A stretch of 59,496 nt of DNA from an uncultured Pelagibacteraceae bacterium (GTDB taxonomy: Bacteria; Pseudomonadota; Alphaproteobacteria; Pelagibacterales; Pelagibacteraceae). Position 1 is the stretch's first letter. The number at the start of each line of letters is the position of its first letter. Shown in pieces: positions 36,434 through 44,843 of this stretch. The notes under the pieces are model-generated. The model worked only from the letters and a program-made list of their open reading frames with translations. It was not told the origin of the DNA and ran no database searches. The position numbers and the translations under genes are program-made. The stretch spans positions 1-59,496 of the forward strand of contig CAJQSV010000016.1 in the NCBI GenBank assembly GCA_905616445.1, read 5' to 3'.

Positions 36434-36797
36434 GCTAGATAGTTGGCTTGTCGCTATCAACTTTTGTTGGTAGAGGAAAGTCCGGGCTCCATAAAGACAC
36501 AGTGCCAGTTAATGGCTGGCGAGGGTGACCTTAGGGACAGTGCCACAGAAAATAAACCGCCTTATCAAGGCAAGGGTGAAAAGGTGTGGTAAGAGCACAC
36601 CGGTTTTTTGGTAACAAAAAACGCATGGTAAACCCCACTGGGAGCAAGGCTAAATAGAGATGACATTGTGCTGATTTATCAGTGCTAAAAACCGTCTTTA
36701 GTTCGTTGTCTGGGTTAGCCGCTTGAGTCTAAGCGTGAGTTTAGACCTAGAGAAATGACTGCTTTAATGACAGAACCCGGCTTATAGACTATCTAGC
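36434..36797 (+). ncRNA. rnpB: RNase P RNA, bacterial type A
   Basis: This is the catalytic RNA that trims tRNA 5' leaders. The ends pair as P1 (GCTAGATAGT at 36434-36443 with ACTATCTAGC at 36788-36797). The universal P4 strand GAGGAAAGTCCGGGCTCC begins at 36473, and its partner with CAGAACCCGGCTTA begins at 36771. The conserved core GGTGAAAAGGTGTGGTAAGAG lies near 36575-36595. At about 364 bases it has normal length. It explains most of the 575-base gap between the amidase and mraZ. The rest (36798-36963) holds the mraZ promoter. Confidence 0.95.
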
Positions 36798-36870
36798 AAT
36801 CTGAACTATTTTCTTTAAAATCACATAATTAAACCTTCATTTTATAGCTTTTATCTAAAAAAGTAATGTA

Positions 36871-36899
36871 TTGACTAGTTTTAATAAAACCCATAACAT
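36871..36899 (+). promoter_or_regulatory. mraZ promoter of the division/cell wall cluster
   Basis: TTGACT (36871-36876) and TAACAT (36894-36899) are exactly 17 bases apart. The -35 matches consensus at 5 of 6 positions and the -10 at 4 of 6. The start would be near 36906, which gives a 58-base leader before the mraZ ATG. The three MraZ-type boxes overlap the -10 and the start site. Confidence 0.55.
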
Positions 36900-36913
36900 C
36901 CCATAAAAACCCA
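36889..36913 (-). promoter_or_regulatory. MraZ operator: three TGGGN boxes with 5-base spacers
   Basis: ACCCA (36889-36893), TCCCA (36899-36903) and ACCCA (36909-36913) repeat with an exact 10-base period. On the minus strand they read TGGGT, TGGGA, TGGGT. In E. coli MraZ binds TGGGN repeats separated by five bases upstream of its own gene, so number, sequence and spacing all agree. They cover positions from about -17 to +8 of the predicted mraZ promoter, which suits a repressor. Confidence 0.7.
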
Positions 36914-36963
36914 AATTAGTCGTTAAATGAAATATTTAAAAGAAAAAGGTGTTTTGAAAAATT

Positions 36964-37428
36964 ATGTTTTTATCAAGTTACGAAAACAAACTAGACAAAA
37001 AAGGAAGAGTTTCTGTGCCTGCTAGCTTTAGATCTCATCTAGGCTCTTTAGGTTATAATGGATTTATAGCTTATCCATCATTTAACCATGAGGCTTTAGA
37101 GGCTTGTTCGCAAGATAGAATAGAAAAACTTTCAAACACGATAGATTCACTAAATCCATTTGAAGAAAAAAGAGATTTTTTTGCAACTTCAGTTTTATCT
37201 GAAAGTGTAAGTTTACAATTTGATAGCGAGGGTAGAGTTTTGATTTCGGAAAAATTATTAAGCCACGCAAAAATAAAAAATAATATTTTATTTATTGGAT
37301 TGGGAAAAACTTTCCAAATATGGGAACCAAAATCTTTTGAAAAGTTCAAAGTAGCAGCAAGAAAAAAAGCGTATCAAAATAGATCTAATTTAAAATGGGA
37401 CAACAATCTAACAGGGGAGAAAAAATGA
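36964..37428 (+). CDS. mraZ: Transcriptional regulator MraZ
   Basis: This AbrB-like ring-forming regulator opens the division and cell wall cluster and in E. coli represses its own promoter. Two DxxxR DNA-binding motifs are seen, DKKGR (residues 11-15) and DSEGR (about 86-90). Length is 154 residues. The stop overlaps the ftsZ ATG (ATGA at 37425-37428). The operator boxes upstream support autoregulation. Confidence 0.95.
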
Positions 37429-38936
37429 CTATAAGAATAGGTGGCGGAGAACTTAAGGAATTAAAACCAAGAATTTTAGTTTTAGGTGTTGGAGGTGCGG
37501 GAGGCAACGCAGTAAATGCCATGATCGAAGGAGGTATGCAAGGAGTAGAATTTGTTGCGGTAAACACCGATGCTCAAGATTTAAAAATGAGCAAAGCCGA
37601 TGCAAGAATTCAAATTGGAACAAATCTTACAAAAGGTTTAGGAGCCGGTGCGAAACATGACATCGGACAAGCTGCTGCCGATGAATCTTTAAATGAAATA
37701 ATTAATTTTTTACAAGGCGCTAATATGGTTTTCATTACTGCTGGTATGGGTGGCGGAACTGGAACTGGAGCTTCAAGCGTAATTGCTAGAGCGGCAAGAG
37801 AGCTTAATATTTTAACTGTCGGTGTAATTACTCTTCCTTTTTCTTATGAAGGACCTAAAAGAATGCGTAGAGCAATTGAAGGAATGAATGAACTAAAAAA
37901 ACATTTAGACACTTCTATAGTTGTTCCAAATCAAAATCTTTTTAAGGTTGCAAGTGAAACAACGACATTTGAAGATTCATTTCATTTATCTAACGATGTT
38001 TTAAATCATGGCGTTCAAAGCATTACCGACCTTATGGTGAAACCAGGAATTATAAATTTAGATTTTGCTGACGTTGAAACTGTTATGAGTTCAATGGGCA
38101 AAGCTATGATGGGAACTGGAGAAGCAGAAGGAGAAAACAGAGCTTTAACCGCAACTGATTTGGCTTTAAACAATCCTTTGATAGATGATTATTCTCTTAA
38201 AGGTGCCAAAGGTTTGCTAGTAAATATAACTGGAGGAAAAGACATAACACTTTTTGAGGTAGACCAGGCCGTAAATAAAATAAGAGCTGAAGTTGATCCA
38301 GAAGCCGAGCTTATATTTGGAGCTATTAAAGATGAGTCTCTTAACGGAAAAATGAGAGTGTCTATAGTTGCCACAGCTTTAGACGGTCAAGTTGCTAGTA
38401 CGAATGGAGTGGTAAATATGGTTAGTCGTATCCAAAATAGAAATAGCGGTTATTCAGAAGGATTATTCTCTACAAGAGGGAATGTAATTCCTAATAATTC
38501 TTATAATACCTCAATTGGCGCCACCGCTTTAAAACTAGATGAACAACATGAAGTAAACTCCGAACAACAGCATTCCTTAATTGTTGAACAGAAAACTACA
38601 GTTGAGCAGGAAATTGCAGTTGAAAACGGAACAACATCATTGAATCTAAACGAAACAAACGAAGAAGTTTTTTCTGAAAACATCGATCCGATTGCGGCGG
38701 AGGAGAGTTTATTTGAATTTGATTCTATAGAACAGATCTCTTCAACAAATGATACTGCGTTAGCTTTAGAAGAAGAATATACGCCAAAGCTTTTTTCCGA
38801 AATAACCGCTGAAAGCTTAGAGAGTAATTCTTTAGAAACCGAAGAACACAAACTTTTTGATCAAGAAAACAATCAAGAAAACAATCAAGAAGATGATTTT
38901 GAAATTCCCGCATTCTTGAGAAGACAAAAGTTTTAA
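37425..38936 (+). CDS. ftsZ: Cell division protein FtsZ
   Basis: This tubulin-like GTPase forms the division ring. The glycine-rich loop [10 protein letters not shown] is at 21-30 and the tubulin signature GMGGGTGTG at about 107-115. A long Glu/Ser-rich linker (about 330-490, with a repeated [10 protein letters not shown] stretch) leads to the C-terminal peptide [11 protein letters not shown] that binds FtsA and other partners. I chose ATG 37425 (503 residues), which overlaps the mraZ stop and has the Shine-Dalgarno AGGGGAGA. The position directly behind mraZ is unusual: in most alphaproteobacteria ftsZ follows ftsA. Confidence 0.97.
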
Positions 38937-40281: not shown

Positions 40282-42004
40282 AAACAGTAAAAATTTCATT
40301 CATCAAAATCAAAAATCTTTTTTCTTTGATGATTTTCTTGAAACCAGTAAAAAACAAAAAAAGACACATAAATCAGAAATTTCAGAAGATAGGCTTTATG
40401 TTTTATTTTCTGTTTTTTTTTCTTTAATACTTATTTTTTCAATTTCTATTTTTTCTATTTCAATTCAACGATCTAATTTTGAAGAATATAAAAAAGTTGA
40501 TCAAAATTCTTTATTTCTTAGAAGAAATATAGTGGATAGAAAAGGTCAATTAATTGCAACTAATATAAATTCTTACCATGCGGGTATAAAGCCAAATCTG
40601 ATTAAGAATAAAAAAAATTTTATTCTAAACATTAAATTAAATTTTCCTGAAATTTCCCTACCAAAATTAAAAAAAAATTTACTAAATAAAAAATATTTTT
40701 ATTTAAAGAAAAGATTAACCGAGGATGAAAGCAATAAATTACGAGCTTTTGGTGAAAAGGGAATTATTTTTGAACCCTATCAAGGCAGAGTGTACCCCCA
40801 CGGACAACTTTTTAGTCATGTACTTGGTCAGACAGACGATGATAATTATGGAATTTCTGGAATAGAAAAATTTTTGGACGAAGAGATACAAAATAATGAA
40901 AAAATAAATGATCCTTTGTTTTTAACACTAGATACAAATGTGCAGTTTTTAATAAAGACTGAATTAAAAAAAGCCATGCAAGATTTTAAAGCAAATAATG
41001 CAGGCGGGTTGTTAATGGATGTTAATAGTGGTGAGATATTATCATTAGTTTCTTTACCGGATTATAATTTGAACATACGAAATGACATTTCTGATCCCAA
41101 ATACATGAACCAAATTACAAAAGCAGTTTATGAACTTGGCTCTGTATTTAAAACTTTCACACTTGCATTGGCTATTGAAGAAAATATTTTGACACCAGAA
41201 ACAATGATTCACAACATTGCAAAAAAAATTCAATGTTCTATCTATCCAATAACCGACATTCATGAATTTCCTAAAAGCATGTCAGCAGAAGATATACTAA
41301 TAAGATCTTCTAATATTGGAACTTTAATGATTGCCAGAAAAATTGGCGAAGAAAAACTAAAAAAATTTATTGAAAATTTAGGACTTTTAAAATTTTCAGA
41401 CATTGAGTTAGAAGAAGTTGGAATGCCTTTCAAATTTAAATGGGAAAAATGTAAATTAGAAACAGTATCTTACGGTCATGGAATCGGCACCACAGCTTTG
41501 CAGGCTGCTGTTGCATACGCCTCCATAACTAATGGTGGCTATATAATTAAACCAACTTTAGAATTAAAAAAAAATTTTGATAAGAAAATTCGCAAATCTA
41601 TTATTTCTAATAGTACAAGCAATAAAATAAACAAAATTTTAAGAAAAGTAGTAGATGATAAAGAAGGCACGGCCAGTTATGCAAACATCGAAGGTTATTA
41701 CGTTGGTGGAAAAACAGGTACCGCTAAAGACTACAAAGATAAAAAAAAAAATATAAATACGTTCATTTCTATATTTCCATCTAACAAACCAAAATATGTA
41801 CTCCTAGTTATTTTAGACGACCCTAAAGGTGCGCCACATATTTCTTATAAGCACAAAGGTTTAGTAAGGAAAAATATTCAAAGAACTGAAGCTGGCTGGA
41901 ATTCTGTTTATGTGGCGGGCAAAATAATAGAGAAGATTGGACCTATTTTAGCCATAAACAACGACGAGGCTTACAATACTCATGTTGTTAAAAAAAATAA
42001 TTAA
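40271..42004 (+). CDS. ftsI: Peptidoglycan transpeptidase FtsI (PBP3)
   Basis: This is the septal class B penicillin-binding protein. One transmembrane helix (about 45-65) follows a charged cytoplasmic N-terminus, then the PBP dimer domain and the transpeptidase domain with SVFK (active Ser), SSN and KTGTA motifs in order. Length is 577 residues. It overlaps ftsL by 11 bases and the murEF frame by 23 bases. Confidence 0.95.
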   Translation: MISKNSKNFIHQNQKSFFFDDFLETSKKQKKTHKSEISEDRLYVLFSVFFSLILIFSISIFSISIQRSNFEEYKKVDQNSLFLRRNIVDRKGQLIATNINSYHAGIKPNLIKNKKNFILNIKLNFPEISLPKLKKNLLNKKYFYLKKRLTEDESNKLRAFGEKGIIFEPYQGRVYPHGQLFSHVLGQTDDDNYGISGIEKFLDEEIQNNEKINDPLFLTLDTNVQFLIKTELKKAMQDFKANNAGGLLMDVNSGEILSLVSLPDYNLNIRNDISDPKYMNQITKAVYELGSVFKTFTLALAIEENILTPETMIHNIAKKIQCSIYPITDIHEFPKSMSAEDILIRSSNIGTLMIARKIGEEKLKKFIENLGLLKFSDIELEEVGMPFKFKWEKCKLETVSYGHGIGTTALQAAVAYASITNGGYIIKPTLELKKNFDKKIRKSIISNSTSNKINKILRKVVDDKEGTASYANIEGYYVGGKTGTAKDYKDKKKNINTFISIFPSNKPKYVLLVILDDPKGAPHISYKHKGLVRKNIQRTEAGWNSVYVAGKIIEKIGPILAINNDEAYNTHVVKKNN

Positions 42005-44843
42005 AAATTTTCCAATAAAAATTTCAAATATTAATATTGAAGGACTGTCTTTAGATAGCAGGAAAATAAAAAAAAATTATTTATTTTTTGCTGTTCGAGG
42101 CACAGAATCAAATGGAGAAAACTATATTTTGGACGCAATCAATAAAGGCGCAAAAGCAATCGTCTGCAGCCTAAGTTGTAAAATAAAAAACAATAAAGTT
42201 CCAATTATTAAAGTTAAAAGTATCTCTGAAGTTCTTGCTTACGCTTGTAAAACATTTTATCATGAAAAACCTAGTAATATTATTGCTGTAACAGGAACTA
42301 ATGGAAAGAGTTCAGTTGCCGAATTTTATCATCAAATCCTCACTTTGCAAAAAATTCCAGCTGCCTCTATTGGAACTTTAGGAATTAAAATTAAAAATAA
42401 AATAAAAAAAACTAACCTAACAACGTTAGACACTATCTCTCTTCATCAAGAGTTATCAAAAATTAAGAAACTTGGAATTAACAACGTAATACTAGAAGCT
42501 TCGAGCCACGGTTTGTTGCAAGGCAGACTTAATGGAATAGATTTTAAAACTGCAATTTTCACCAATTTTTCGCAAGACCATTTGGATTACCACAAAAACT
42601 TGAAAAATTACTTAGGAGCTAAATTAATCTTATTTTCTAAATTATTAAAAGAAAATCGTAATATTGTAACTGATAATAAGATTAAAGAATTTCCAAAGTT
42701 AAGGTTAATAGCAAAAAATAGAAAATTAAATTTATTTACCATAGGTAAAGAAAATTCTACTATTAAAATAAATTTACTTATAAGCAAAAATAATTTTCAA
42801 CAATTATCTTTTAATTATAATAATAAAAAATTTACAATAAAAGTTCCGTTAATTGGTTTTTTTCAAATCAAAAATTTATTGATGGCTATTCTTGCGGCTA
42901 AAATTTCAGGCTTAAATATGAATACAATTCTAAAAAATATTAAAAAAATAAAAGAAGTTAATGGTCGACTTCAATTAATTAGAACATTACCAAATAAGGC
43001 AAAAATTTTTATTGATTATGCTCATACGCCGGATGCTCTTGAAACATCTCTTAAGACAATAAAAAAACACTATAATATTAATCCAGACGTTGTATTCGGT
43101 TGCGGAGGTGAAAGGGATAAGAAAAAGAGAGCCATCATGGCAAAAGTTTGTGAAAAACACGCGAAAAAAATTTATATAACGGACGATAACCCAAGAAATG
43201 AAAATCCTAAATTAATTAGACAAATGATTATTTCTGGGTTCAAAAAAATGAAAGACGTTCAAAACATACCTTTGAGGCAAAAAGCAATTATACAAGCTGT
43301 AATTAACTCTAAACCAAATGGAATTATTCTTGTAGCGGGAAAAGGGCATGAAACTACTCAAATATATAAAAACAAAACATTAGACTCTTCAGATAAAACA
43401 ATAATCAAAAAAATTAATATTAAGCACCTTAAATATAGCAAAAATAACTACAACCAAATTTTAAATGCTGAGATTATGTACAAATTAATAAAAAAAAAAA
43501 ACATAAAGTTTGAAGGCGTTTTAATTAATTCCAAAAAGATCAAAAAAGAAAATCTCTTCATTGCAATAAAAGGAAAAAAGCATGACGGGCATACTTTCGT
43601 AAAAGAAGCATTAAAAAACAAAGCAAATTTTTGTGTTGTTAGAAAAAATATAAAAAATATAAAAAATATAAATCAAAATAAATTGATTAAATGTAGCAAT
43701 ACAATTAATTTTTTAAATCAATTAGCTGCAAAAAAAAGAGAATTCTCAAAAGCAAAAATAATTGCCGTAACCGGTAGCTCAGGCAAGACCACATTTAAAA
43801 CTTTACTTGGTAATTTATTAGCTAATTACGGAAAAACTTATTTTTCAAAGAAATCTTACAACAACCATTTTGGAGTACCTTTAAGTTTGTGTAATTTAGA
43901 GAATGATCATGAATATGGAGTTTTTGAAATTGGTATGAACAAATCTGGCGAAATCCGAAAACTTTCTAATTTAGTTAAACCCGACATAGTAGTAATCACT
44001 AACATTGGAGAAGCCCATATAGAAAATTTTCATAATTTAAACGGTATTGCAAAAGCAAAAGCAGAAATTATTGAAAATATAAATAGAGATGGTTTCTTAA
44101 TTCTCAATAAAGATGACAGGTATTTTAAGTTTCTTTCAAAAATTGCAAAAAAAAGAAAAATTAAAATTTTATCTTTTGGAATGTCAAAAAAATCTGACGC
44201 TACACTTGTTGCAAAAAAACCTTTTAAAAATCATTTCTTGCTTCATTTTAAAGTTTTAAATAAAAACGTGTTTTTTAAAGTTAAAAACATTAACTCTTCA
44301 ACTATACTTAATATATTATCTAGTTTATTAGTTTTTTCTATTTTAAATCTAGATTTATCAAAGATAGAAAATTTAATCTATCTTTTTCAATCAGTTGAAG
44401 GCAGAGGAAAAGCACACATTGTATCAAGGTATAAAAAAAAATTTCATTTTATCGATGAAAGTTATAATGCAAATCCCTCTTCGGTAAAAAATGCAATCTA
44501 CAATTTTTCCAATATAAAAAAAAATAATTCAAAAAAATATTTATTGCTTGGAGACATGCTAGAATTAGGAAAAAAATCAGACACTTATCATAAAAATTTA
44601 TCACATTTTATCAATGAAAGTGATATTGATCAGTTGTTCATATATGGGAAAAATGCATTTAAAACTTATCAAAAAACTTATAAAGCTAAACAAGGAAACA
44701 TTTTACAAAACATAAATGATTTCGATGAAGTTTTTTCTGGCTTAATAAAAAAAAATGATTATTTGATGATTAAAGGTTCAAATGCTACAGGGTTAAATAA
44801 TTTATCTAAAATAATTATTGCTGGAGACAAACATGCTTTATAG
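41982..44843 (+). CDS. murE/murF: MurE-MurF fusion: two Mur ligases in one protein
   Basis: One 953-residue frame holds two full Mur ligases. The first (about 1-480) is MurE: LSLDSRKI at 23-30, ATP loop TGTNGKSS at 104-111, and the DNPR motif at 402-405 that marks meso-diaminopimelate addition. The second (about 495-953) is MurF: LINSKKIKKENLFIAIKG, then ATP loop TGSSGKTT at 597-604 and DESYNANPSS. The link (480-495) is short. The product would add meso-DAP and then D-Ala-D-Ala to UDP-MurNAc-dipeptide. No stop or start signal splits the two halves. Similar fusions are known in some other proteobacteria such as Bordetella. Confidence 0.93.
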   Translation: MLLKKIIKNFPIKISNINIEGLSLDSRKIKKNYLFFAVRGTESNGENYILDAINKGAKAIVCSLSCKIKNNKVPIIKVKSISEVLAYACKTFYHEKPSNIIAVTGTNGKSSVAEFYHQILTLQKIPAASIGTLGIKIKNKIKKTNLTTLDTISLHQELSKIKKLGINNVILEASSHGLLQGRLNGIDFKTAIFTNFSQDHLDYHKNLKNYLGAKLILFSKLLKENRNIVTDNKIKEFPKLRLIAKNRKLNLFTIGKENSTIKINLLISKNNFQQLSFNYNNKKFTIKVPLIGFFQIKNLLMAILAAKISGLNMNTILKNIKKIKEVNGRLQLIRTLPNKAKIFIDYAHTPDALETSLKTIKKHYNINPDVVFGCGGERDKKKRAIMAKVCEKHAKKIYITDDNPRNENPKLIRQMIISGFKKMKDVQNIPLRQKAIIQAVINSKPNGIILVAGKGHETTQIYKNKTLDSSDKTIIKKINIKHLKYSKNNYNQILNAEIMYKLIKKKNIKFEGVLINSKKIKKENLFIAIKGKKHDGHTFVKEALKNKANFCVVRKNIKNIKNINQNKLIKCSNTINFLNQLAAKKREFSKAKIIAVTGSSGKTTFKTLLGNLLANYGKTYFSKKSYNNHFGVPLSLCNLENDHEYGVFEIGMNKSGEIRKLSNLVKPDIVVITNIGEAHIENFHNLNGIAKAKAEIIENINRDGFLILNKDDRYFKFLSKIAKKRKIKILSFGMSKKSDATLVAKKPFKNHFLLHFKVLNKNVFFKVKNINSSTILNILSSLLVFSILNLDLSKIENLIYLFQSVEGRGKAHIVSRYKKKFHFIDESYNANPSSVKNAIYNFSNIKKNNSKKYLLLGDMLELGKKSDTYHKNLSHFINESDIDQLFIYGKNAFKTYQKTYKAKQGNILQNINDFDEVFSGLIKKNDYLMIKGSNATGLNNLSKIIIAGDKHAL

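Follow-up and report, generated by a model that had tools for sequence, protein, structure and literature searches.

The 59,496-nucleotide stretch of DNA analysed here (the window), which its best named relatives place in SAR11 (Pelagibacteraceae, Alphaproteobacteria), carries three phased boxes over the promoter of mraZ. We propose that these very probably form an autoregulatory MraZ operator that heads the division and cell-wall cluster of this bacterium, where mutual exclusion of MraZ and RNA polymerase would limit the output of mraZ, FtsZ and the cluster. The boxes, their phasing, their uniqueness, their conservation, their register with the promoter and the order of the genes can all be read directly from the DNA (Table 1). 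The operator is of a known kind, of which this is a variant, and what sets it apart is its inverted strand and its interleaving with the core promoter.

Table 1. Features of the mraZ promoter region in the window (coordinates are those of the window).
Feature	Position	Strand	Basis
rnpB (RNase P RNA), adjoining upstream gene	36435..36800	+	Rfam RF00010, 306.9 bits
-35 element TTGACT	36871..36876	+	consensus scan; TTGAC begins 18 or 19 nt upstream of box 1 (30/30 same-genus loci)
MraZ-type box 1 (promoter-proximal; coding-strand CCCA, minus-strand TGGG)	36890..36893	-	exact pattern; position kept in relatives
-10 element TAACAT, occupying the gap between boxes 1 and 2	36894..36899	+	consensus scan; conservation in SAR11 promoters
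MraZ-type box 2	36900..36903	-	exact pattern; kept in relatives
MraZ-type box 3	36910..36913	-	exact pattern; kept in relatives
Leader reading frame, out of frame, overlapping the mraZ start	36927..37025	+	same frame open in 108/110 SAR11 loci
mraZ (154 aa)	36964..37428	+	PF02381, 69.3 bits (cut-off 23); NF001477, 173.4 bits (cut-off 162)
ftsZ, whose start codon overlaps the stop of mraZ (ATGA; ATG at 37425)	37425..38936	+	TIGR00065, over cut-off; overlap in the window locus, L003

On the minus strand, positions 36913-36890 read TGGGTTTTTATGGGATGTTATGGG, with TGGG three times at a period of 10, and the coding strand accordingly reads CCCA-TAACAT-CCCA-TAAAAA-CCCA; the three minus-strand boxes exactly 10 bases apart that a sequence-only reading of this DNA had described are indeed present. 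The pattern TGGG-N6-TGGG-N6-TGGG matches once in the window and not at all in 100 dinucleotide shuffles, the two-box pattern matches twice against 0.28 expected, and a pattern scan of the host assembly (772,895 bases, about 64% complete) returned no second exact copy of the triplet, in keeping with the earlier judgement that a phased triple is unlikely to arise by chance. The single copy with one mismatch in that assembly (G000:C1:148740) falls within a predicted open reading frame and was dropped as a chance match. The triplet lies 51 nt upstream of the mraZ ATG, over the conserved promoter. Hence, of the characters by which an MraZ operator may be recognised, the window has at least three direct repeats of the TGGG/GTGG type with a 10-bp period, situated at the mraZ promoter and kept before mraZ in relatives. 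It does not have the coding-strand boxes downstream of the -10 element that are seen in E. coli and in the other classes sampled, and because its boxes lie on the opposite strand and are interleaved with the -10 element, we regard it as a variant rather than a standard MraZ operator.

The gene behind the promoter is mraZ, as the sequence-only reading had it, since its protein scores above the curated cut-offs of both PF02381, which matches in two stretches, and NF001477; the score with TIGR00242 is 71.1, under the cut-off of that model (98.35). A DxxxR motif in each half is a trait of the MraZ family, and it is found here as D11-R15 and D87-R91, both unchanged across 24 aligned proteins, while the DxKGR motif region is conserved between the E. 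coli and SAR11 proteins. MraZ chains in the PDB match the window protein by sequence (E about 5e-7), and a structure prediction in which the swapped-hairpin ring fold was sought gave a poor model with a mean pLDDT of 46.7.

Close relatives retain the boxes. MraZ genes were found in 55 of 61 genomes searched (the window's own included), and a search of the genus found exactly one exact triple in 35 of 41 genomes, with none for a reversed-pattern control in the 41. The triple precedes mraZ in every genus genome with an intact mraZ start (32 of 32 including that of the window, coordinates compared by hand), and the proposal to look for the boxes in relatives is thereby answered in the affirmative. 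Four of the six genus genomes that lack the triple have no detectable mraZ (G003, G004, G005, G009), in another mraZ is cut by the contig start (G030) and one was left unchecked (G064); three genomes that bear the triple (G061-G063) were outside the mraZ search and so are outside the 32. Triples are also present in 18 of 18 fetched loci from the second family of the order, with no pair in the opposite orientation. Among named SAR11 loci, taken as the best 80 of 530 confirmed and hence a non-random sample, 77 have the triple, all 80 have at least a pair, and none has the opposite orientation.

The TTGACT and TAACAT elements are spaced by 17 bp. A bare match to the promoter consensus is not significant (8 sites in the window versus 9.6 expected in shuffles), and support for the promoter therefore comes from conservation: across 76 distinct SAR11 promoters the -10 hexamer has T at its first position in 100%, A at its second in 99% and T at its sixth in 100%. 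The sequence-only reading had the boxes overlapping the -10 element and the start of a TTGACT promoter with 17-base spacing, and both the overlap and the spacing stand, although "overlap" is too weak a word, as TAACAT is precisely the 6-bp gap separating boxes 1 and 2.

Its further claim, that this is the arrangement bound by E. coli MraZ, is wrong. The E. coli K-12 sequence, which we read directly, has TGGG-N6-TGGG-N6-TGGG on the coding strand and after the -10 element. Thus the SAR11 locus resembles E. coli Pmra (mraZ1p) in having three TGGG boxes of period 10 at the mraZ promoter, but its boxes face the other way with respect to the gene and interlock with the -10 element. The genes behind also differ, with rsmH following mraZ in E. 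coli, where ftsZ is reported far downstream, near the far end of the operon (PMC3265435), and ftsZ standing second in SAR11. E. coli MraZ is reported to repress its own cluster (PMC7761207). The same source describes period-10 repeats (a 7-nt repeat and a 3-nt spacer) at the Burkholderia cenocepacia mraZ promoter, PmraBc, and a shift in vitro of the dcw-promoter fragment with these repeats by purified B. cenocepacia MraZ (PMC7761207). The likeness extends to the period and the position at mraZ, whereas the Burkholderia repeats are of GTG type and downstream of the -10 element (PMC7761207). Mollicute MraZ sites (AAAGTG[T/G]) are likewise described as direct repeats over the mraZ promoter of a cluster that includes ftsZ (PMC8475190), but with another core sequence, in wall-less hosts and before a cluster of four genes. 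Within the Alphaproteobacteria, the mraZ leader of Rhodobacter sphaeroides, the source of UpsM, is similar in having a short open frame behind an mraZ promoter (PMC5089854) and unlike in being 268 nt long with a terminator-derived sRNA; under the terms searched, no mention of MraZ boxes was found in the accessible text on this leader. Our search of the accessible literature, which is weak evidence of novelty, found no description of inverted boxes or of a promoter lattice for Alphaproteobacteria, and within the same accessible texts no report of binding, transcripts or mutants for the MraZ of SAR11 or of any alphaproteobacterium.

The inverted polarity is class-wide. From 289 genomes of the class, 243 of them with MraZ, 110 loci were read (30 among the matches listed and 80 chosen, mostly one per family), of which three were dropped (in L100 and L149 the start could not be located, and L120 had too little sequence upstream), leaving 107 usable loci from 92 families that were scanned up to 330 nt upstream. 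A phased CCCA pair is present in 98 of the 107 and a triple in 66, with equal-length coding controls at 0 throughout; in the opposite orientation 6 loci have a pair and 1 has a triple, 83 families have the CCCA pair, and the remaining 9 loci have no phased pair within the 330 nt. In the other classes of the phylum, sampled as the 30 best-scoring loci of which 29 were usable (L203 missed), GTGG pairs on the coding strand occur in 24 of 29 and CCAC pairs in 5 of 29. TGG triples there lie on the coding strand in 22 of 29 and on the other strand in none, versus 1 and 95, respectively, of the 107 loci of the class of the window. This class therefore departs from the rest of the phylum, as sampled, in both the strand and the core of the boxes (TGGG versus GTGG).

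Outside SAR11 the boxes keep a strict register with the promoter. Among the 95 such loci of the class that have two or more phased boxes, 46 carry an exact TTGAC in a box gap and 19 carry it one base earlier, versus at most 1 at each of eight other shifts, and exact TGNTAT lies in a box gap in 66 versus at most 1 at every other shift. Both elements together (spaced by 20 bp, with 4 or more matches of 5 in each) are in register in 51 loci and at no other shift in any. When 53 rows from 48 families are aligned, they read CCCA-TTGACN-CCCA-N6-CCCA-TGNTAT-CCCA, which we interpret as a -35 element, 17 bp and an extended -10 element TGN-TATCCC, whose last three bases would double as box bases. This interpretation agrees with a report that a conserved T at -7 is rare in Alphaproteobacteria (PMC8407463). 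Relative to the rest of the class, the SAR11 register is shifted by about 3 bp, such that the -10 element sits between boxes.

Downstream of the operator the order of genes in the window is mraZ, ftsZ, rsmH, an ftsL-like gene, ftsI and a murE-murF fusion, on to ftsA and lpxC; the names ftsL, mraY, murD, ftsW, murG, murC, murB, ddl and ftsQ were assigned by eye rather than by family search. The fusion is a single open reading frame of 953 aa (window 41982-44843) whose halves exceed the cut-offs of TIGR01085 and TIGR01143, and it scores 852.7 with the bifunctional MurE/MurF model, under the cut-off of 1023. The position of ftsZ between mraZ and rsmH is kept to the extent that ftsZ directly follows mraZ in all 110 SAR11 loci (30 same-genus loci including that of the window and 80 named) as well as in the extended loci of the second family (4 of 4) and of f10 (2 of 2). 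In 30 further loci of the class, the gene after mraZ is ftsZ in 3 (one of them SAR11), rsmH in 13, and has neither motif in 14. Upstream, RNase P RNA adjoins the operator, and in Pelagibacter ubique HTCC1062 it is listed in the same neighbourhood, between mraZ and ybjR (PMC2704228). A scan of the window found no terminator-like site between rnpB and mraZ, and therefore read-through from rnpB could bypass the operator.

Based on these data, we put forward the following mechanism, in which the binding of MraZ, the repression, the transcription start and a single long transcript are what we infer. A ring-shaped MraZ would dock on the three TGGG boxes, which recur every 10 bp and hence would present themselves on one face of the helix, and the ring would cover about -16 to +8. 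Since the -10 element occupies the first box gap and the presumed transcription start the second, the DNA contacted by MraZ would also be that contacted by sigma-bound RNA polymerase, and we propose that for this reason the two exclude each other. Rising MraZ would then shut off mraZ, FtsZ and the cluster behind, with FtsZ affected because ftsZ is the next gene. The sequence-only reading had likewise envisaged MraZ autorepression that governs ftsZ directly and perhaps all the mur genes; of this, the phased boxes over the mraZ promoter, a genuine MraZ and the adjacent, ATGA-overlapped ftsZ are in place, the E. coli-type arrangement is not, and repression would follow from the geometry. Counted against the operator as a whole are the strand and position of the boxes, unlike those of E. 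coli, the 9 of 107 class loci with no pair, possible read-through from rnpB, and an increase in FtsZ in Mycoplasma gallisepticum.

This last observation, that MraZ overexpression is associated with more FtsZ in M. gallisepticum (PMC8475190), bears on a different proposal, namely that MraZ, once bound here, activates transcription or alternates between activating and repressing it. We consider it improbable, though the least so of the alternatives, given that the boxes lie over the -10 element and the presumed start, a position suited to blocking polymerase, and that in Mycoplasma genitalium, where MraZ is reported to repress the cluster, deletion of mraZ reportedly raises the downstream genes (PMC8475190). 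Similarly, the phased CCCA boxes of Alphaproteobacteria might serve a regulator other than MraZ, for their strand and core (TGGG versus GTGG) are unlike those of the boxes studied experimentally, and the accessible literature gave us no binding report for an alphaproteobacterial MraZ. Yet they precede mraZ itself, occur once per genome in the genus and have the 10-bp period of known MraZ sites, and E. coli and SAR11 MraZ share the DxKGR motif region, all of which makes another regulator very unlikely.

Explanations that dispense with a protein fare worse. A G-quadruplex motif is reported in the promoter region of Staphylococcus aureus mraZ (PMC11796246), and the G tracts here could in the same manner form a quadruplex on the template strand and be no protein operator at all. 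However, an intramolecular quadruplex requires four GGG tracts, the window and most SAR11 have just three, and such a structure needs neither strict 10-bp phasing nor a register with the promoter; we give it very little credence. Chance repetition, which nothing but the low complexity of the region favours, is refuted by conservation, with the shuffles, the uniqueness in the assembly and the genus, class and named SAR11 counts all against it, and its probability is negligible.

Returning to the MraZ operator, we lean, if only slightly, towards a wider proposal. Throughout the class the operator would have been turned round with respect to the gene and merged with the core promoter to give a single 10-bp lattice, in which boxes and hexamers alternate and, outside SAR11, the end of TATCCC supplies box bases. 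In SAR11, a register slip of about 3 bp would have placed the -10 element between boxes and ftsZ would have moved directly under the promoter, making MraZ a direct regulator of FtsZ dosage, with translational control added by a conserved overlapping leader frame. A strict class-wide lattice of operator and promoter is a sharp prediction, and whether MraZ sets the supply of FtsZ becomes testable where ftsZ is the next gene. SAR11 bacteria are reported to be very abundant in the ocean (PMC3160333), and our search of the accessible literature found no paper on ftsZ regulation in them. Moreover, a published growth index takes ftsZ transcripts relative to RNase P (PMC13349992), and in SAR11 genomes like that of the host this index relies on two adjoining loci with an MraZ-type operator between them.

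The leader frame is itself conserved. A start codon before mraZ that reads into mraZ is found in one out-of-frame register in 108 of 110 SAR11 loci versus 5 in the other, and in 30 distinct same-genus leaders, selected solely by the position of start codon and ribosome site, 0 have a stop in the leader frame versus 29 and 27 in the others (shuffles: mean 23.3, never below 15). The frame may be that of a translated leader by which MraZ synthesis is limited or coupled. An ATG lies exactly 7 nt upstream of mraZ in 48 of the 110 loci, with four intervening bases that vary. We considered programmed frameshifting between the leader frame and mraZ and rejected it, as the sequence ahead of the ATG contains no constant slippery site. 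In the second family (L037-L054) the equivalent leader start appears, as judged by eye, to be in frame with mraZ.

Separately, a LexA-like element (GTTC-N7-GTAC or GAAC-N7-GAAC) begins 63-83 nt ahead of the first box in six relatives that were inspected; L281, L282, L283 and L204 are examples of loci that carry it. Through it, the SOS response could control the division cluster in some of SAR11. The window has no such element upstream of mraZ, and the link to LexA is kept out of the explanation given above for that reason. Across the 80 named SAR11 loci the element occurs upstream, before the -35 element, in 21 (two coding controls: 0 and 2 of 80), and its strict form in 3 (controls: 0). The extended form of the element in the same genus is present a single time in each of 26 genomes out of 41, which argues against a word shared by an SOS regulon. 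The host's own lexA (L320) has GAAC-N7-GAAC near its start.
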